Shown here: positions 16,736 through 24,263 of the stretch, piece after piece
Position numbering within the stretch: position 1 is the first letter of the stretch
Layout of the letters: each line of letters begins with the position of its first letter
Assembly (NCBI GenBank): GCA_029881805.1
Contig: JAOULW010000001.1
Span: forward strand, 186,001 to 250,000
Direction of reading: 5' to 3'
From: Candidatus Bathyarchaeota archaeon
GTDB lineage: Archaea > Thermoproteota > Bathyarchaeia > Bathyarchaeales > Bathycorpusculaceae
DNA length: 64,000 nt
Translations under genes and position numbers: made by a program
Notes under the pieces: model-generated
Database searches by the model: none
The model's input: only the letters and a program-made list of their open reading frames with translations
What the model was told of the DNA's origin: nothing

Positions 16736-16779
16736 TTGGGTTTGGGGGTAAAGTTTTATCCCAAACCCAAACCCAAACC
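16736..16779 (+). repeat. Island repeat copy A (G-rich palindromic hairpin)
   Basis: TTGGGTTTGGG at 16736-16746 is perfectly complementary to CCCAAACCCAA at 16760-16770. The inner TAAA/TTTA pair lies at 16749-16758. The result is a long stem with a small internal loop, followed by more CCCAAA units to 16779. Positions 16736-16761 are identical, base for base, to 24217-24242 (copy E). The motif is not seen in the core regions of the window. Confidence 0.75.
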
Positions 16780-16800
16780 GTGTCAACACTGAGAATGTGT

Positions 16801-16870
16801 TACGTGACACGTGTCGTGTGTTTTGTGACACATATCACAAATGAAATGCTCGGTCATTCAAAACTTATAT
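16801..16870 (+). promoter_or_regulatory. Operator-like dyads and TATA box before the transglutaminase-like gene
   Basis: A perfect 10-bp palindrome GACACGTGTC lies at 16806-16815. A second dyad, GTGACACATATCAC (arms GTGA/TCAC), lies at 16825-16838. TATA-like CTTATAT follows at 16864-16870, about 45 bp before the TTG start at 16913. The arrangement suggests a DNA-binding regulator, but no cognate regulator is identified. Confidence 0.4.
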
Positions 16871-16912
16871 CTGGCAAGGAAAACCTAAATTCTATTGAAG
16901 GTTGGATAGACA

Positions 16913-17584
16913 TTGGTTGAAAAGAAGGAAGTTGGAAAAGCAACTGCGGGTTTAGTAATTTGTGCAATCTTGATTGTTATATTGGCATTTTTTAGCATCT
17001 GGTTCTTTACACGTATGCAGAACCAAAGGAATTTGAACAATGATTTGCAATTGGAGAAATCCCATCTTCAAAACGAACTAGGTACATTGACTGCAGAATA
17101 CCAGAATTATGCTTCAACTCACACCCATAGCAATTCAGAATATGACTCCTATGTGGCTAACCATCACCATACTGACCAAGAATATGATCAGGCACGATTT
17201 CTCTTCTACTATGTTAAACCAAAAGAACAGAAATTCGGAGTTTACGATCTTAGTGATTATGTAACGAGTCGGGAATGGACAAAGCCGTATCAAGAAGGAG
17301 TTTTTGATTGTAGTGAAATGAGCGCGTCACTTGAATGGGAATTGGAGAATGAAGGATGGCACACGATTATTGTCCTTGGAAATTCTCCTTTTGATTCTGG
17401 GCGTCATGCTTGGGTGCTTGTCCAGACAAGCGCGGATGGGTATATGCCTGTAGAATCCACAAATAGGGACGTGGTATGGTGGGAAAATCCCAACTTTGAC
17501 AACTACTTTGTGTATGACCGTAGTTTCGAAACTATACAAGAAGCTTTGGCTTATAGTGAGACGGAATTTGACTGGTGGAATTAG
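16913..17584 (+). CDS. Membrane-anchored transglutaminase-like (cysteine peptidase fold) protein
   Basis: A 223-residue protein with one transmembrane segment at about residues 12-32, a coiled-coil stretch (about 36-62), two His-rich repeats (THTHSNSEYDSY and NHHHTDQEYDQ), and a C-terminal domain with transglutaminase-like spacing. The candidate nucleophile is Cys in VFDCSEMSA, His in GRHAWVLVQ, and the acidic partner in MPVESTNRD. Such domains act as peptidases or peptidoglycan and pseudomurein modifiers outside the cell. The start is TTG at 16913. Its stop overlaps the convergent primase-like gene by 4 bp. The fold is likely, the substrate unknown. Confidence 0.6.
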   Translation: MVEKKEVGKATAGLVICAILIVILAFFSIWFFTRMQNQRNLNNDLQLEKSHLQNELGTLTAEYQNYASTHTHSNSEYDSYVANHHHTDQEYDQARFLFYYVKPKEQKFGVYDLSDYVTSREWTKPYQEGVFDCSEMSASLEWELENEGWHTIIVLGNSPFDSGRHAWVLVQTSADGYMPVESTNRDVVWWENPNFDNYFVYDRSFETIQEALAYSETEFDWWN

Positions 17585-18009
17585 GTCTTACGAATGAGCC
17601 ACTTTATGAACCTGCGAGAAACCAAGAAGCTCAGAACTTGTTCACTTTGAGAGCCGTAACGAAAGACGATACGCGGACTGTACTTGTCTTTCTTAGGAGA
17701 AACTCTCAGCGTAGAGCCTTGCTTGATACATTGCATAATGAACCATTTTGTTAAGGCTTTATGTTGTGAGAGCAGAGACACCCAAGCCATGATACTAACG
17801 TTTTCAATCCAAGACACTCTTTTATCAAAAATAGCGTGATAGGACTTCTCGCTTGATTTTAGAATAATGAAACCTCTAAGTCTGAACCATTTAACAGTTC
17901 TTAAAGCCCAATGTTTAACCGTTTTAAAAGAGGTATGGTCAAAATCAAGTTTAACCGTTTCCTGATCAGTTATGCCTAAAATACTGTTATGATTCCACTT
18001 CTTTGTCAA
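17581..18009 (-). CDS. Small protein with primase-polymerase (AEP)-like motifs
   Basis: A 142-residue protein, last gene of the minus-strand island operon. Residues 21-25 read LDFDH, a hydrophobic-Asp-x-Asp step like the metal-binding motif of archaeo-eukaryotic primases. Residues 56-58 read SYH inside KSYHAIFD, like the S-x-H motif. A basic stretch LRVSPKKDKYSPRIVFR follows at about 111-127. It is shorter than known AEP enzymes, so it may be a minimal catalytic core or a degenerate one. The TTG start at 18009 has AGAGGGAGA just before it and overlaps the preceding gene by 23 bp. Function is inferred from motifs only. Confidence 0.4.
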   Translation of the reverse strand: MTKKWNHNSILGITDQETVKLDFDHTSFKTVKHWALRTVKWFRLRGFIILKSSEKSYHAIFDKRVSWIENVSIMAWVSLLSQHKALTKWFIMQCIKQGSTLRVSPKKDKYSPRIVFRYGSQSEQVLSFLVSRRFIKWLIRKT

Positions 18010-18292
18010 TCCATTCTCCCTCTAAACCATACTTTTCTGGGTGTCCGACAAACTTTTCGGCAGAAACATCAACAAAACCTCTTGGCACGAAAGTATGAGC
18101 CTTCACCACAGCCTTGTAGAGGTTTTTACCTTTTCCATGAAACTCATATCTTCCACTCATTTCGACAGCCTTCATTCTTTTCGTAGTTTTCCAATACCTC
18201 TGAAGAATCCCATCTTTACGCTTAACCCAAAACCTCTGCTTAACAGGAACTTTAGCTTCATATGAACCGTAAATAGCGATTCTTTTGACCAT
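17987..18292 (-). CDS. Conserved-looking basic small protein, unknown function
   Basis: A 101-residue basic protein starting MVKRIAIYGSYEAKVPVK and continuing with many Lys/Arg and aromatic residues (QRFWVKRKDG, QRYWK). The open frame extends to 18334. The ATG at 18292 is preferred because AGAGGTTG lies 6 nt upstream on the coding strand. The compact charged beta-rich make-up suggests a nucleic-acid-binding or structural element protein. It lies in the four-gene minus-strand operon between the 190-residue protein and the primase-like protein. No family recognised. Confidence 0.5.
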   Translation of the reverse strand: MVKRIAIYGSYEAKVPVKQRFWVKRKDGILQRYWKTTKRMKAVEMSGRYEFHGKGKNLYKAVVKAHTFVPRGFVDVSAEKFVGHPEKYGLEGEWIDKEVES

Positions 18293-18321
18293 AAAATCAA
18301 CCTCTAAAGATGCCCTATAGA

Positions 18322-18894
18322 CTACCCAGAACAATGGGAATTTTGACCCAATTGGGTGTCAATTCTCTTTATTAATTCCTCAATCTTCTGCCTAAGTTCC
18401 TTACTTATGTAAACACGCTTGGGTATGTTGCCTCCATAGATATCCACTAAAGAAAATGCCAGCATATTAAGCGTCTCATGTTTGTCCAAGCGATTTTTCT
18501 GAAGAAGTCTTTTTCTATCGTTTGATATGACATATTCAAAATATGCGTCGTTCTCAGCGTCATAGTAAATTTTGTTCTTGTTTAGACGAATCATGAGGGT
18601 GAGGTTTGGGTTTTTCCGTATGATATAACTTGTTTTTTGGGGTTTCTGCATCGTGTATTGAGTGAATTGTTTTTCACCATTCTCAGTTTTCTCGATTGCT
18701 TCGACCTTTAATGATTCAATTACTTTTTCCTTGAATGCTGTTGGTTGAGGTTCTGGGATTAATCTGTCTAGTTTCTTTTCTAATTTGGCTTGATCTAGGA
18801 ATCTGTCTAGGAGTCTCTTCTTGACTGGATTTTCCTCTTTGACCCAATCAATGAACGGTGTTTCACTTTCCATTTTTGGTTGTTTTTTGGTCAT
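18322..18894 (-). CDS. Charged protein of unknown function in the island operon
   Basis: A 190-residue, highly charged protein with a Lys/Glu-rich N-terminal half (about residues 1-75), a beta-prone middle (IIRKNPNLTLMIRLNKNKIYYD) and a C-terminal helix rich in Lys/Glu (ELRQKIEELIKRID). It starts with ATG overlapping the AbrB-like gene stop (ATGA), so translation is coupled. No family is recognised. Position suggests a replication or maintenance accessory of the element. Confidence 0.5.
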   Translation of the reverse strand: MTKKQPKMESETPFIDWVKEENPVKKRLLDRFLDQAKLEKKLDRLIPEPQPTAFKEKVIESLKVEAIEKTENGEKQFTQYTMQKPQKTSYIIRKNPNLTLMIRLNKNKIYYDAENDAYFEYVISNDRKRLLQKNRLDKHETLNMLAFSLVDIYGGNIPKRVYISKELRQKIEELIKRIDTQLGQNSHCSG

Positions 18895-19088
18895 GTAACG
18901 TTCACGACAGTGGTATGTTTCCTTTGCTTGAGCTTACAAGGTCTGATTTTTACGAATCCGTTGAATGCGACAGACATATAGTCACCTTCTTTTAGTCCTG
19001 ACGATTCTACCCAAATCTTCGGCAACACAACAAAATAAGAACCACTTTGTTCTTGCAGTTTTCTTTTGACTCTGTATTCACGAGACAC
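18891..19088 (-). CDS. SpoVT/AbrB-type DNA-binding protein
   Basis: A 65-residue protein with the swapped-hairpin AbrB pattern: RVKRKLQEQSGSYFVVLPKIWVESSGLKEGDYMSVAF, where a short strand is followed by a proline-led helix and GLKEGD. Such proteins are dimeric repressors or antitoxin-like regulators. It is the first gene of the minus-strand operon and faces the cas1 operon across 76 bp, so it probably controls the shared divergent promoter and its own expression. Family call fairly sure; target inferred. Confidence 0.7.
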   Translation of the reverse strand: MSREYRVKRKLQEQSGSYFVVLPKIWVESSGLKEGDYMSVAFNGFVKIRPCKLKQRKHTTVVNVT

Positions 19089-19111
19089 TTATTTTCACGA
19101 CAAGTATTACA

Positions 19112-19157
19112 AGAAAAGTTATATATCAAAATATAGGCTATTATATAATAGGAGATA
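19112..19157 (+). promoter_or_regulatory. Divergent promoter of the cas1 operon with a 12-bp palindrome
   Basis: GAAAAGTTATATATC at 19113-19127 resembles BRE plus TATA for the plus-strand operon. A perfect palindrome TATTATATAATA at 19139-19150 lies near the expected start site, followed by GGAGATAAC as Shine-Dalgarno before ATG 19165. The palindrome is a candidate binding site for the adjacent AbrB-like protein. Confidence 0.5.
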
Positions 19158-19164
19158 ACACCAA

Positions 19165-19638
19165 ATGGTTAAAGAAGAACATGAAGATAGCAATCATATA
19201 GACAAATTGCGTAGACAATACCGTTATCATCAAGGAGGAATATTCAGGGATGCAACAAGAGAACGAATCATGACAAAAAAGGGTATTTCAGGAAGAGGTA
19301 GAACCAAAGCCCAGTTTTGGTATCGTCAGAGAGAGTACGTCAAAACTGCTCTGATTGACCTTCAACTCTTTTTAGAAATGGCGGGAAAAAACAATGTGAA
19401 CCAAGTCGTGACGGCTGAAAGCCTCAAACCTATTGTTAATGCTCTCCTATGGCATCCAATACTTGACGAAGATGCACCAGACCAAAATAGAGCTGAGATT
19501 TCTGAGTTATTCATCAAGGCAGGTTTTGAGTATCTAAATGTGAAGAGTAGCAATCACATTACACTCTCTCATAAACGCACAATAGACGAAGCCCTGAATC
19601 TGACAAGCTACTTAGTTAGACACTTCAAAGGAGAGTAG
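19165..19638 (+). CDS. Unknown protein directly upstream of cas1
   Basis: A 157-residue protein with a basic N-terminal third (KLRRQYRYHQGG, RDATRERIMTKKG, SGRGRTKAQFWYRQREYVK), which could bind nucleic acid, and a helical C-terminal part. No family is recognised. It is not Cas2 (about 90 residues, ferredoxin-like fold) and shows no Cas4 cysteine or RecB motifs. It ends 7 bp before cas1, so the two are co-translated and may work together as an integration partner. That role is inference. Confidence 0.55.
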   Translation: MVKEEHEDSNHIDKLRRQYRYHQGGIFRDATRERIMTKKGISGRGRTKAQFWYRQREYVKTALIDLQLFLEMAGKNNVNQVVTAESLKPIVNALLWHPILDEDAPDQNRAEISELFIKAGFEYLNVKSSNHITLSHKRTIDEALNLTSYLVRHFKGE

Positions 19639-19645
19639 AAATCAG

Positions 19646-20668
19646 ATGAAAACCAAAGTTCTTAAACTTGTTCTGGATGGGAATGGTTCTTATTTGGGAA
19701 TGGAGAAAGGCTGCTTTGTCGTCAGAGACAGAAAAGACAATATTCAGAGGTTCCCTTTCTTTGAGAATGAGATAGGGGAAGTGGTTCTTAAAAGCGGTAA
19801 TCTTGTTTCAACAGGAGCTTTAGCTTCTTTAGGTTTCTGGGATATTGACGTTTTAATCCTTACTCAGAAGGGTCAGCCAGTTGCTATGCTTAAAGGCTTA
19901 GACGATGACAGTCACGTCAAGACTCGTATCAGTCAGTATGAAGCTTCCAAGAATGATAAGGGAATCTCTATCGCCAAGAAAATAGTAGCGTCTAGAATTG
20001 AAAGCCAAAACCTTATCCTAAGAAAGTATGGTTTACGACAACATTATCTAGTCAGGATTAAGAAAGCAGTTGAAGAGGTCAATTCTGGTTCTGTCAAAAC
20101 TAAGCTCATGGCGATTGAAGGTCACTGTTCAAGGCAATATTTCAAACAAATCTTTCAGTTATTTCCCAGCTTCATGAGGGTTGAGAATCGGAAAACCTTC
20201 AAGGCTTATGATGGACTGAACAACCTTTTCAACTTAGTATATTCAGTCTTGAAGTGGAAAGTTTACAGAGCTATAGTGAGAGCCAAACTTGAGCCGTACC
20301 TAGGGTTCTTGCACTCTGAACAGTGGGGAAAACCTTCTCTAGTGTGCGACTTCATGGAATTGTATCGATACTTTGTTGAAGATTTTCTCATTCATAACTC
20401 TTCAAACTTGAAGAGGAAAGATTTCATAATGAAAAGCGAAGATTACAGCAAAAACAAGATCGGACAGAGAGAATACTTGAACAACCCTAAAACTAATGAT
20501 TTAACAAACCGTCTCTATTCCTATTTCGAGACAATAGTTGAAACCCCAAGAATGAAATATGGCAAGCGACAGACAATCGAGACCTTAATCAATGAAGAGG
20601 CTTTTCTCTTTGCTCAATACTTGAGGAATGAAATACCAACATGGATTCCCCGAATTTCAGAGGTATGA
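19646..20668 (+). CDS. cas1: Solo Cas1 integrase (CRISPR-associated endonuclease Cas1 homologue)
   Basis: A 340-residue Cas1-family protein. The N-terminal beta domain begins LVLDGNGSYLG and includes VVLKSGNLVSTGALASLGFWDIDVLIL. The C-terminal helical nuclease domain carries all three metal ligands: Glu158 in IEGHCSRQYF, His223 in YLGFLHSEQWG and Asp235 in SLVCDFMELYR. Cas1 normally integrates spacers with Cas2. Here there is no CRISPR array, Cas2, Cas4 or effector in 64 kb, so it belongs with solo Cas1 proteins of mobile elements. It lacks the PolB that defines most casposons. It is co-transcribed with the 157-residue protein upstream. The family call is strong; the mobility role is inference. 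Confidence 0.9.
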   Translation: MKTKVLKLVLDGNGSYLGMEKGCFVVRDRKDNIQRFPFFENEIGEVVLKSGNLVSTGALASLGFWDIDVLILTQKGQPVAMLKGLDDDSHVKTRISQYEASKNDKGISIAKKIVASRIESQNLILRKYGLRQHYLVRIKKAVEEVNSGSVKTKLMAIEGHCSRQYFKQIFQLFPSFMRVENRKTFKAYDGLNNLFNLVYSVLKWKVYRAIVRAKLEPYLGFLHSEQWGKPSLVCDFMELYRYFVEDFLIHNSSNLKRKDFIMKSEDYSKNKIGQREYLNNPKTNDLTNRLYSYFETIVETPRMKYGKRQTIETLINEEAFLFAQYLRNEIPTWIPRISEV

Positions 20669-20741
20669 AAATTCATATATTTTGCTCTTCATATATTAGT
20701 GAAACAGTCGAAAGAAGCCTGCGCAGAATCTAATATCATAT

Positions 20742-21620
20742 GTGTGGAACTCTGAAATGCCAGAAAGAACTATACGAAGAGTGCTATTCACTAGTTACCC
20801 CAATGGTTATTTGATTGTTGACCGTGAAACTTGGCTTAATTATTCAATGACTGGTGAAGAATACGAATATATTCGTTGCCTAGTTTCACAGCTTTTAGAC
20901 GAAAAAGGAAACATCCTTTGCATCGTCAACCAAAGCTTGAATTTTAAGACGGGTGTATCGACCTACGTACCTACTGTATATAGGATGTTTCTTGACTTTA
21001 TTCTTGAATATAATATTAAGGATGGTATGTTTGTTGACTTGCTTTTAACTGATGTCATTAGAAGGGGAGGGGAAAGCACTCCCATATCTCCCAAAAGGTT
21101 GTCAGTAGCCGAGATGGAAATAAAGCCAAAAGATAGTCGCGGTGTTTCCGTACCGAGTATTGGATTACTTGTTTCAACCGAATTCAGTGATGAGTATTAC
21201 TCAAATTTGACAATGGAAATCAACAAGGCATATGGTTACGGTATATATACAGGAACTTGGGTTCTTCTAAGAAAGTTGTTTGAGAACCTCATAATCGATT
21301 TGCTCTCTGTGAGATATGGTATGGCTGAAATAGAGTTATTCTTCGACAAAAACAAGGGATATCACCTTAACCTTTCCACCCTGATAAGTAATCTTAAGTT
21401 GAAAACATCGGATTTCAACATGTTTACCAAAGGATTTGACGAAGACTTTTTTAAGTTTCTAGAAAATCTACGCGGAAAAGCTGGAGCAAGTGCCCACTCG
21501 CTTGAAATCATCCCAAATCCCAAGCTGTTTGAAACATGGAAAGATTCAATAAATCAGTATAGCCAACTTATGCTATACGTTATTCAGAAGGTCAAGGATG
21601 CGAACAAATTAGCTAAGTGA
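20742..21620 (+). CDS. Unknown protein with HEPN/DUF4145-like C-terminal part
   Basis: A 292-residue protein. The first 160 residues are of mixed composition with no known motif. The C-terminal half is helical, with GTWVLLRKLFENLIIDLL and a later LRGKAGASAHSLEI, which resembles the Arg...His step of DUF4145/HEPN proteins in defence systems. The spacing from Arg to His is longer (seven residues between them) than the standard 4-6, so nuclease activity is doubtful. The start is GTG at 20742 or ATG at 20757. It is 74 bp after cas1 on the same strand, with its own possible promoter (AT-rich 20675-20700). Confidence 0.45.
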   Translation: MWNSEMPERTIRRVLFTSYPNGYLIVDRETWLNYSMTGEEYEYIRCLVSQLLDEKGNILCIVNQSLNFKTGVSTYVPTVYRMFLDFILEYNIKDGMFVDLLLTDVIRRGGESTPISPKRLSVAEMEIKPKDSRGVSVPSIGLLVSTEFSDEYYSNLTMEINKAYGYGIYTGTWVLLRKLFENLIIDLLSVRYGMAEIELFFDKNKGYHLNLSTLISNLKLKTSDFNMFTKGFDEDFFKFLENLRGKAGASAHSLEIIPNPKLFETWKDSINQYSQLMLYVIQKVKDANKLAK

Positions 21621-21732
21621 GTATTTTACGAGTCTTCGTTTGTCTCGTTGATTGTTTGTTCACATGACTCTACCCTCAGATAGAGATGGTGAGAGTGACA
21701 GAGAGAGTCTCCCTCCGTTCCTGTGTTCGTTT

Positions 21733-21771
21733 GGGGGTTTGGGGTTTGGGTTTGGGACTAAAATTTAATCC
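21733..21771 (+). repeat. Island repeat copy B with a four-tract G-quadruplex motif
   Basis: G-tracts of 5, 4, 3 and 3 separated by TTT at 21733-21756 form a textbook quadruplex-capable sequence. It runs directly into GGACTAAAATTTAATCC at 21755-21771, an 8-1-8 palindrome with one mismatch. It lies between the convergent unknown gene and the lipocalin, in the same orientation as copies A, C, D and E. Confidence 0.7.
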
Positions 21772-21808
21772 GACGTCTCTGGAAGTGTATTTCTTAGCCG
21801 TGTGCGTT

Positions 21809-22267
21809 TTATGTCTTTTGCAGAGTTTTGATGAGCTTGTTTACATCGAAACCTTTTGACTCTGCGTATTCCACTAATTGGGAGTATAGCTTGTTGTCCA
21901 TTTGGGGGGTTCTGCTCAATATCCACAGATACTTGCGGTCTGGTGTACCTACAACGGAATAATCATAATTATTCCCCAATTTTATGATCCAATAATCGCC
22001 ATAGAAGGGCCAGAAGAACGTTACTTTGAGTTTTGCGTTAGAGTTCTTGTCAACTACTTTCGCTTTGCCCTTTGCCTGTTTCATCTTGCCATTTTTTGTG
22101 CATTGGTTGAGTACGGATATGCTGCCATCCTTTGATAACGTGTAAGTGGCGGTGGTTTCGTCGCAGCCTTCTTGGAATTTAGCTGGAAGGTGTGCTATCT
22201 CATACCATTTGCCTAGATATTTTTCCAACTCAACATGCTGTACAACTTCAAGTGACAAGTAAATCAC
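21809..22267 (-). CDS. Lipocalin of the Blc type
   Basis: A 152-residue lipocalin with all three structural signatures: LEKYLGKWYEIAHLPAKFQEGC at the N terminus, TATYTLSKDGSISVLNQC in the middle, and YLWILSRTPQMD near the C terminus, with the WPFYGDYWIIKL strand. Bacterial Blc proteins bind lipids and carry a lipoprotein signal peptide. This one has none, so it would be cytoplasmic. Lipocalins are unusual in archaea, so transfer from bacteria is likely. It is a single-gene unit between repeat copies B and C. The start may lie a few codons inside the frame. Confidence 0.88.
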   Translation of the reverse strand: MIYLSLEVVQHVELEKYLGKWYEIAHLPAKFQEGCDETTATYTLSKDGSISVLNQCTKNGKMKQAKGKAKVVDKNSNAKLKVTFFWPFYGDYWIIKLGNNYDYSVVGTPDRKYLWILSRTPQMDNKLYSQLVEYAESKGFDVNKLIKTLQKT

Positions 22268-22533
22268 TCAGCATTTCCGAAGTATAGCATGAATTTATAG
22301 CTTTCGTGTAGCCAAGGCTTGAACATAGTCCCGCTTCTGGCACTTAGCCCGAGCTATATCATGAGCGTCTATCTCCGTTAGGGACGTATACTCGATTCCG
22401 ACTATACTCTTAATCTATAATGGTCTGACGGTAGTACCCTACCCCTTCTACCTGATTAATGAAATGAACCGTGTTCTGAATCCTGTATACGCCTCTTCAT
22501 AGTGCCCTGTGTCGTGCGTTTACTGGTCTGAAA
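22268..22533. other. Non-coding stretch with fragmentary minus-strand open frames
   Basis: About 265 bp upstream of the lipocalin with higher G+C than the surrounding intergenic DNA. On the minus strand, consecutive short frames are open but broken by stops. The longest runs from about 22415 down to 22301 and contains TEIDAHDIARAK. A hairpin-forming GGTAGTACCCTACC is at 22429-22442. It may be a decayed gene or a structured RNA. No family matched by eye. Confidence 0.3.
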
Positions 22534-22565
22534 TTTGGTTGGTTGGATTAAATTTTAATCCCCAA
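22534..22565 (+). repeat. Island repeat copy C (palindromic)
   Basis: TTTGGTTGGTT followed by GGATTAAATTTTAATCC, a perfect 8-1-8 palindrome, then CCAA. The 32 nt match copy D (23781-23812) at 31 of 32 positions; the only difference is the centre base of the palindrome. Copies C and D flank exactly one gene. Confidence 0.8.
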
Positions 22566-22597
22566 CTACATTTCCTTATCCGCATAGTTTTCGCCTG

Positions 22598-23521
22598 TTA
22601 TCTCTTGCATCCCATCTCCTCAGGTGCATTCATCTTATTGTTGATCTCGTTCACGGCCTGCTCGAGATCCTTGGCCGATCGCATCGAGGTGGCTGTCGGA
22701 ACGCTCGTAGTGACGAAGTGCTGTGCATACGGGAAGCAGGCCACTTCGAACGGCATCGGATTCAGTAGACCAGCGCCAAAAGTGTTGGTGCACAGGGAGA
22801 TATCGTTGATTGGAATCTTCAGCGCTTGGGCCATCTCCGTAGGATCGAACACCAGACTAAACGGCTTTGTGCATTGCTGCAATTCACCGCCGTAGTCGAC
22901 TGAGAGATTTCCCTCGACCCACAGGCGCTGATCGAGTTCCTTGAGTACACCGTTCTTTAGGTCAGCAACTAAGATAAGGCCGTTGTCGGATCGGGCGCTT
23001 ACTACATCAATGATGATTTCTCCAAGATAAGACGTTGTGACTACCGAATGTGAGGTGCTTGGACCGACGAAACCCTGTTTCGGGTTGTAACTGTGGGTGT
23101 TGCTTTCGTACTCAATGATGATCCAAGAGAGAAGTCCAGTCTTGCAGTTCTCAGCGATCAAGTAGAACTCCACGCGGCTCCCCCAAAACACACTTGTGTG
23201 CACGTTGAAGGCACTGACTATTGCGCACTTTCGCTTGGCTGTATCGCTGAACATTGCCGAGGGGAACAAGCTGTAGTTAGGTGGTAATAACCGCTCTGCG
23301 GCCTTGGTATCGGTGACCTCAAAGGCGAGGAACACAGAGTACGGTTCGACAATGAAGCTCATATATGGATTGGTGCGCGCTCCTCTGTTGACTATGTACC
23401 GCTGGAATCGTAGCGGTAGCTTGCGGAGCATAGCGCTTCCTTGGGTTGTGGACGCGACCTTAGATGGAATGACCATCTTCTCGGTTGTCTTGATGAAACG
23501 TCGAAGGTCATTGGCTTTCAT
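22598..23521 (-). CDS. Unknown 307-residue protein, possibly acetoacetate-decarboxylase-like
   Basis: A 307-residue soluble protein with segments such as ERLLPPNYSLFPSAM, AFNVHTSVFWGSRVEFYLIAEN, VTTSYLGEIIIDV and LWVEGNLSVDYGGEL. The layout recalls the beta-barrel of acetoacetate-decarboxylase-like proteins, but I cannot identify the catalytic lysine with confidence. The gene is visibly richer in G+C than its neighbours (for example 22660-22900) and is framed by near-identical repeats C and D, so recent acquisition is likely. It could be a catabolic or antibiotic-type enzyme; the function is not assigned. Confidence 0.5.
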   Translation of the reverse strand: MKANDLRRFIKTTEKMVIPSKVASTTQGSAMLRKLPLRFQRYIVNRGARTNPYMSFIVEPYSVFLAFEVTDTKAAERLLPPNYSLFPSAMFSDTAKRKCAIVSAFNVHTSVFWGSRVEFYLIAENCKTGLLSWIIIEYESNTHSYNPKQGFVGPSTSHSVVTTSYLGEIIIDVVSARSDNGLILVADLKNGVLKELDQRLWVEGNLSVDYGGELQQCTKPFSLVFDPTEMAQALKIPINDISLCTNTFGAGLLNPMPFEVACFPYAQHFVTTSVPTATSMRSAKDLEQAVNEINNKMNAPEEMGCKR

Positions 23522-23780
23522 TTCTTTTCCTCACACTATGACTACCGCTGACATATACGGTATAGCATTTAGTATTTCCAATATTGTTATATAATATTTA
23601 TTATTAATCTTAAAAACTGTTGATTACTGCTAAAATTCTAATGGTTCATTTGGTGGGACTGATAAATGGAGTGGCTTAATGCTAATATAACAGTTTTTGA
23701 CGAACCAATTCTTGTTTGAGTTGAAAAAAGCTGATGGTGGAAGATGCTGTCTGTAAAACCCTCTTTTTTGTTTCTGTGAT
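23522..23780. repeat. AT-rich gap with a 10-bp inverted repeat
   Basis: No gene. AAAAACTGTT at 23612-23621 and its exact reverse complement AACAGTTTTT at 23689-23698 enclose 67 bp, an arrangement like a tiny non-autonomous element or a large-loop regulatory hairpin. The left part (23570-23610) is extremely AT-rich and probably holds the promoter of the minus-strand gene. Confidence 0.35.
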
Positions 23781-23812
23781 TTTGGTTGGTTGGATTAAAA
23801 TTTAATCCCCAA
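23781..23812 (+). repeat. Island repeat copy D (palindromic)
   Basis: TTTGGTTGGTT plus GGATTAAAATTTAATCC, a perfect 8-1-8 palindrome, then CCAA. It differs from copy C by one base in 32 and has the same orientation. It lies about 85 bp upstream of the small plus-strand gene. Confidence 0.8.
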
Positions 23813-23897
23813 ACTCACATAAACGTAACACATGAACCATAAGGCTTAATTGTTAAAACCTGAGAAATTGGATTGACAGGATAAGGAGGTGAGTCAA

Positions 23898-24116
23898 TTG
23901 GCAGTAGCAGCTTATGCAGCATGGGTATTGGAGCGTACTATAAAGACACTCAAAGAAGCGGGAGCTACTTCTGAAGAGACTGCTAAAACACCCAAAGAAC
24001 TCGAACTTGATGAAAAGTGGCTGAAAATGAGTGCCAATACAATCATACCTTCGGGTGTTGTTACAACAAAGGACGGAAGATATTATTTAATTAGCAAAAA
24101 CGAAAAGCAACAATGA
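23898..24116 (+). CDS. Small protein of unknown function
   Basis: A 72-residue protein beginning with an Ala-rich helix (AVAAYAAWVLERTIKTLKEAG), followed by a charged middle and a short C-terminal strand (GRYYLISK). The start is TTG at 23898, set by a near-perfect Shine-Dalgarno AAGGAGGTGA at 23883-23892, the strongest in this region. The GTG at 23889 lies inside that sequence and is rejected. It forms a one-gene module between repeats D and E. No family recognised. Confidence 0.6.
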   Translation: MAVAAYAAWVLERTIKTLKEAGATSEETAKTPKELELDEKWLKMSANTIIPSGVVTTKDGRYYLISKNEKQQ

Positions 24117-24216
24117 CTTGATTACAATTATTCTATGTTTTAGCAAGTTAGCTTCTTTGAAATAGAGAAACAAACTCAAACCAATAGCTCATTCTATTCC
24201 TTATTTAGCAAAGTGT

Positions 24217-24250
24217 TTGGGTTTGGGGGTAAAGTTTTATCCAACCAATC
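24217..24250 (+). repeat. Island repeat copy E
   Basis: Positions 24217-24242 are identical to 16736-16761 (copy A) over 26 nt, then diverge into AACCAATC. It carries the same TAAA/TTTA core and a left G-rich arm. It sits between the convergent 3' ends of two short genes. Copies A and E together bracket 7.5 kb. Confidence 0.8.
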
Positions 24251-24263
24251 AAAGCTTGATCGC

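Follow-up and report, generated by a model that had tools for sequence, protein, structure and literature searches.

The window, a stretch of 64,000 nucleotides from a Candidatus Bathyarchaeota genome, contains an island in which palindromic sites with an A/T core alternate with a Cas1 gene and with other genes, among them a gene of bacterial-type composition encoding 307 amino acids. On balance, we read these palindromes as the junctions of small Cas1 transposons and of Cas1-less gene-carrying units, and the 307-aa gene as a horizontally acquired passenger lying between two of them.

The Cas1 island of the window

In a genome of the same family (G034) serS and nadM are separated by a gap of 151 bp, while in the host genome that gap holds an island of about 9 kb; since the two genes are adjacent in G034, the island is an insertion between them. 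Its parts are the following:

16736..16774, no strand: site A, palindromic junction TTGGGTTTGGGG-GTAAAGTTTTATC-CCAAACCCAAACCC at the left end of the Cas1 element, with 26 nt identical to 24217-24242
16762..21754, plus strand: Cas1 element A-B, about 5.0 kb, with ends CCCAAACCCAAACCC (comparison of TIRs and targets)
17581..18009, minus strand: ORF with a weak archaeo-eukaryotic primase-like match below the Pfam cut-off, kept in several Cas1 elements
18891..19088, minus strand: 65-aa protein, whose 71% relative in another Cas1 element matches a MazE/AbrB-type antitoxin
19646..20668, plus strand: Cas1, 340 aa, the presumed transposase (Cas_Cas1, 3e-50)
20742..21620, plus strand: 292-aa ORF 3' of Cas1, with no family match
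21739..21774, no strand: site B, GGGTTTGGG-ACTAAAATTTAATC-CG (pattern and profile searches)
21809..22267, minus strand: lipocalin gene (Lipocalin_2), alone within B-C, present in 2 of 101 related genomes
22534..22565, no strand: site C (repeat comparison, pattern and genome searches)
22598..23521, minus strand: 307-aa gene, bacterial-type composition, acquired horizontally (composition, distribution, identity)
22603..23633, minus strand: block homologous to the nearest relative copy, comprising the gene and about 110 nt upstream (sequence comparison)
23781..23812, no strand: site D (repeat comparison, pattern and genome searches)
23889..24116, plus strand: 75-aa ORF within D-E
24214..24253, no strand: site E, with the same target, GTAAAGTTTTATCC, as at A (repeat and target comparison)

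The Cas1 gene lies 2 kb from the frame of the 307-aa gene, and the region of its catalytic motifs can be seen by eye (IEGH, FLHSEQ, LVCDFME). The Cas1 element extends from A to B or, alternatively, from A to E (to 24226): the target copies at A and B differ and those at A and E are identical, while the inverted ends are longer for A-B than for A-E. Neither another recombinase nor any RNA family or tRNA was found in the island, and a homolog of the lipocalin gene, from another genus, is not flanked by repeats.

Sites C and D and the gene between them

The preliminary description had stated that copies C (22534-22565) and D (23781-23812) agree at 31 of 32 positions, with the centre base as the only difference, and that they enclose just a G+C-richer gene of 307 residues. 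Recomparison gave the same result, and the interval contains one plausible gene. Since the centre base alone differs, the two cores, GGATTAAATTTTAATCC at C and GGATTAAAATTTAATCC at D, are each the exact reverse complement of the other; the two target copies are identical at 13 of 14 positions, differing at that same base. The core pattern has six matches in the window against 0.2 expected. C-D shows the highest similarity among 50 adjacent site pairs; such near-identity, at 31 or more of 32 positions, is also seen in 11 of 6699 cross-locus pairs of 32-mers, from loci and genomes that are unrelated. The facing ends of the segment, CCCCAACTAC and CCAACCAACC, match at 8 of 14 positions, no better than permuted arms, and the left arm type of both sites, CCAACCAACC, is the tip of none of the eight intact Cas1 elements described below, the nearest tip being CCCAACCC. 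As a non-autonomous Cas1 unit, the C-D segment would be a weak example.

Relative to 52 other window genes, the 307-aa gene is high in GC content (0.515, z +3.6) and in GC3 (0.635, z +5.6, the top value in the window), and in codon usage it is a clear outlier (log-likelihood z -5.9). It was found in 3 of 101 related genomes, and a scan of public genomes revealed homologs 77-88% identical to it in Anaerolineae and other Chloroflexi, Dehalococcoidia, Coriobacteriia, Thorarchaeota and other Bathyarchaeota, in neighbourhoods that are unrelated, two Thorarchaeota excepted. This patchy distribution, the high identity across domains and the unrelated neighbourhoods indicate that the gene was certainly acquired horizontally, across domains. 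It shares 84.7% nucleotide identity with a Chloroflexi copy (dS 0.67, dN 0.07); nadM, a vertical gene beside the island, shows no more than 78% identity with the tested members of the family and 66% with one from another family. The gene is under purifying selection, with a dN/dS of about 0.1.

Thus, the proposal that the segment is a single acquired cassette holds for the acquisition, on the grounds of composition, patchiness, cross-domain homologs and identity to the Chloroflexi copy; vertical conservation of the gene in the clade without repeats, which would have spoken against it, was not what we found. That the cassette carries its own repeats stands only in part, since these belong to a genome- and order-wide family and homologs elsewhere have no frame. 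Indeed, the search for the same flanks in other genomes found copies of the gene without repeats, and the segment in common with the closest homolog (22603-23633) falls short of both ends of the frame, by 37 nt at C and by 147 nt at D; therefore the repeats did not travel between phyla with the gene. The island that holds this foreign gene is one of Cas1 elements, and the sites on either side of the gene are of the junction type.

The 307-aa protein gave no match in Pfam, NCBIfam, PHROG, PADLOC or PDB, no viral contig matched the gene, and AlphaFold models built from 3 and 12 sequences had a mean pLDDT of 29 and 37, which makes them unusable. A 42% identical homolog, annotated as a hypothetical protein, is encoded on a Lactococcus garvieae plasmid (NZ_CP141718.1:61109-61972). 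Truncated homologs in three bins were considered as pseudogenes and rejected, the gaps being runs of N; such a run lies inside the homolog at L038, L039 and L040, as if near-identical copies in the sample had broken the assembly.

The dispersed palindrome family

Rather than being private ends of the 307-aa gene, sites C and D are members of a family spread through the genome and the order. The family is characterized by an A/T palindrome, TNAAANTTTNA, with C-rich arms. In the window, sites A (16745), B (21755), C, D and E (24226) lie within 7.5 kb, with a partial copy at about 24808; pattern and profile searches over the contigs of the host genome (2.2 Mb, 39 contigs) found about 30 sites, about 25 of them beyond the window and in tight clusters. 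The family is present in 36 of 101 related genomes at E<=0.001. Based solely on the core and the bordering GG/CC, a site finder returned 117 sites in the array loci (690 kb) versus 3 in 229 kb of other loci; no more than 7 of the 117 are within ORFs, in sequence that is 76% coding. The sites are spaced at a median of 1.2 kb, with every gene orientation around them, and exactly one gene lies between the two sites in 24 of 50 neighbouring pairs. The genes between sites include those for lipocalin, CAAX protease, creatininase, nucleoside phosphorylase, GNAT, MFS, OsmC, methyltransferase, alpha/beta hydrolase, lysine aminomutase and response regulator proteins. A description of the family as one symmetric repeat was rejected, the arms within a site being no more complementary than permuted ones.

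Cas1 transposons of the order

Relatives of the window Cas1 (49-62% identical) in other genomes were inspected for element ends. Eight Cas1 elements of the same order, located through the Cas1 gene and independently of the palindromes, are 3.3-6.2 kb long, with TIRs of 14 to more than 90 nt and TSDs of 13-15 nt. Five of them illustrate the ends and targets:

L083: TIR CCCAACCCAACCCAACCC..., TSD GATCAAAATTTAGT
L086: TIR CCCCAAACCCAAACCC, TSD ATAAAAATTAAAT
L087: TIR CCCAAACCCAAACCC, TSD GTTAAAATTTTTAT
L085: TIR CCCCACACACAC, TSD ATAGAATTTCTAT
L081: TIR CCCCTCCTCCTCC, TSD ATATAGGTTGAATC

The tips of the TIRs correspond to the arms of the palindromes (CCCAAACCC, CCCACACAC...): among 234 repeat arms, 45% match Cas1 TIR tips and 24% more are of the CCAACC type, versus 2.6% and 0.8% in the controls. 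The TSDs in turn fit the repeat core with a mean of 6.6/8, compared with 4.3 for A/T-rich 14-mers (P<1e-5). Since the TSDs match the core and the arms match the TIR tips, the palindromes look like junctions of the type end-target-end, a type known from tandem casposons (PMC6563490, PMC9939771).

No PolB match was found among the ORFs of the window island or of most of L083 and L085, and for the other Cas1 elements the absence of PolB was judged by their short length alone. In a PDB search, the window Cas1 matches CRISPR Cas1 (4n06) better than the Methanosarcina mazei casposase (6opm). Many relatives retain just the 3' end of this Cas1 (about residues 200-340), several with internal stops, for example G087, G081, G072, G059, G043, G030:C171 and, in the host genome, C17:1084-1230; these fragments are remnants of dead elements, as in decayed transposons.

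Cas1-less units

A blind search for TSD and TIR over all the loci fetched gave 12 cases at 13/16 or better, comprising the eight Cas1 elements, Cas1-less site pairs and others, and none in a control that leaves the limited variety of arms and cores unmodelled; some pairs are expected by chance, because the sites share few core and arm types. Three apparent Cas1-less units enclose a gene:

L047, 105-737 (632 bp): one response-regulator gene, TSD TAAAACTTTACC, ends CCCAACCAACCAAA
L042, 1497-2070: enclosed gene, matching target copy and inverted ends
L044, 1706-3321: enclosed gene, matching target copy and inverted ends

In a fairer test, the unit-facing arms of adjacent sites are more alike than the outward-facing ones (P=0.03), and a permutation test gave P=0.047; these statistics (P 0.03-0.05) are modest support, not proof, for Cas1-less units. 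Among genus-mates of an array-rich genome, which proved too diverged (64-72% identity over most matches), no empty site for a single gene was found.

Proposed mechanism and alternative explanations

According to the reading that we favour, each junction would consist of the end of one unit, an A/T target (13-15 nt, TNAAANTTTNA) duplicated on insertion and the end of the next unit. Every insertion would recreate the target beside the element end, so that further insertions could pile up at one place, giving islands of accessory genes that alternate with palindromes. Cas1 would have made sites C and D, and may have moved the 307-aa gene rather than merely inserting on either side of it. Against such a move stand the poorly inverted ends of C-D, its differing target copies, its left arm type, which is absent from the tips of the intact Cas1 elements, the copies of the gene that have no repeats in other genomes and the near-identical 32-mers of unrelated genomes. 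The C-D allele without the gene is predicted to be a single palindrome, TTGGTTGGTTGG-ATTAAAWTTTAAT-CCCCAA, and ATTAAATTTTAAT and GGTAAAGTTTTATC are candidate target motifs of Cas1. These data suggest, without proving it, that enzymes related to the CRISPR integrase shuttle individual genes around these genomes. A bolder version, which we regard as doubtful, would make the Cas1 transposase the engine of a gene-cassette platform, in which accessory genes, some of them bacterial, are captured within Cas1-recognised ends and stacked at rebuilt A/T palindromes; this would be the analogue of an integron, built on Cas1, and would have a living parallel in the stacking of spacers in CRISPR arrays.

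The strongest alternative, possible in our opinion and yet rather unlikely, is that the palindromes are dispersed intergenic elements of small size, resembling MITEs or REPs and perhaps derived from Cas1 elements, which land between genes in islands that are plastic already; the 307-aa gene would have come separately, by illegitimate or homologous recombination, and its frame would be a by-product of site density. Such an origin fits the copies of the gene that have no frame in other genomes, the nearly always intergenic position of the sites and the ends of C-D, which are not convincingly inverted; moreover, an 85-bp stretch ending at a site, possibly a MITE, recurs at 97.6% identity in two islands of the host genome (L024:9619-9703 and L027:8960-9044). 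However, it has to face the correspondence of the arms with the Cas1 TIR tips and of the core with the Cas1 target duplications, the existence of Cas1-less gene-enclosing units with both TSD and TIR, and the rank of C-D as the most alike adjacent pair.

It is very improbable that the palindromes are attC-type sites of integron-like cassettes moved by a tyrosine recombinase. Diverse single genes between palindromes do resemble a cassette array, and the host genome has eight tyrosine-recombinase matches, but all eight are located outside the island and away from the site clusters, and no IntI-type gene was seen next to the arrays; furthermore, GTTRRRY-like and RYYYAAC-like motifs, recognised by inspection at C and D, stand in the reverse of the attC order, and the core is already accounted for by the TSDs of the Cas1 elements. 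Least credible of all is a role of the palindromes as transcription terminators or regulatory hairpins unrelated to mobility: the sites are intergenic and some fold into hairpins, but of the 94 sites classified, 18 fall between divergent genes and tandem contexts are frequent, the sites are clustered in islands rather than spread genome-wide, a uniform genome-wide placement at gene 3' ends was not seen, and the palindromes match Cas1 TSDs and tips.

Relationship to known mobile systems

Casposons are regarded as the origin of CRISPR adaptation. The Cas1 elements described here are casposon-like: Cas1 lies outside CRISPR loci as the only integrase, TIRs are present in the eight Cas1 elements, with matching ends (CCCAAACCCAAACCC) also in A-B of the window, and the TSDs of 13-15 nt are close to those of casposons, about 15 nt (median 15 nt). 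Conversely, they are 3.3-6.2 kb long and devoid of PolB where inspected, differently from the published casposons of families 1-4, all of which carry PolB (Krupovic et al. 2014, PMC4046053); they use an A/T palindromic target, leave many fragments and are accompanied by apparent Cas1-less gene-carrying units. Tandem insertion into a recreated target has been described for casposons (PMC6563490, PMC9939771).

The islands share with integron gene-cassette arrays the presence of functionally diverse single genes separated by palindromic sites; here, however, no integron integrase is nearby, the attC order of motifs is missing, genes are found in both orientations and Cas1, not a tyrosine recombinase, is the likely enzyme. 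As in MITEs and other non-autonomous prokaryotic transposons, there are small units with the TIR and TSD of a transposase located elsewhere, but many of the intervals hold complete genes and the presumed transposase is Cas1. A search of the literature found no casposon-derived MITE, gene-sized non-autonomous casposon or Cas1 cassette. If the favoured reading is true, small Cas1 transposons without a visible PolB and with a clear target motif, together with apparent arrays of gene units, would show Cas1 as a gene-mobilising integrase and would provide a way in which gene islands arise in these uncultured archaea; it would also become possible to test how the stacking at target sites led to CRISPR arrays.

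Other observations on the site-bearing loci

Many contigs of array-rich genomes are short or end near a palindrome site (L041, L042, L044, L045, L053, L150, L162 and similar); therefore islands are probably undercounted in draft genomes. A second motif, GTATACTCGATTC, recurs near the sites, in the window (22383-22400) and at L041, L043 and L048. Finally, a 90-aa gene (GC 0.31) beside sites is 98.6% identical over 353 bp between L053:112-464 and L054:266-617, an identity that points to a very recent transfer between two families of the order.
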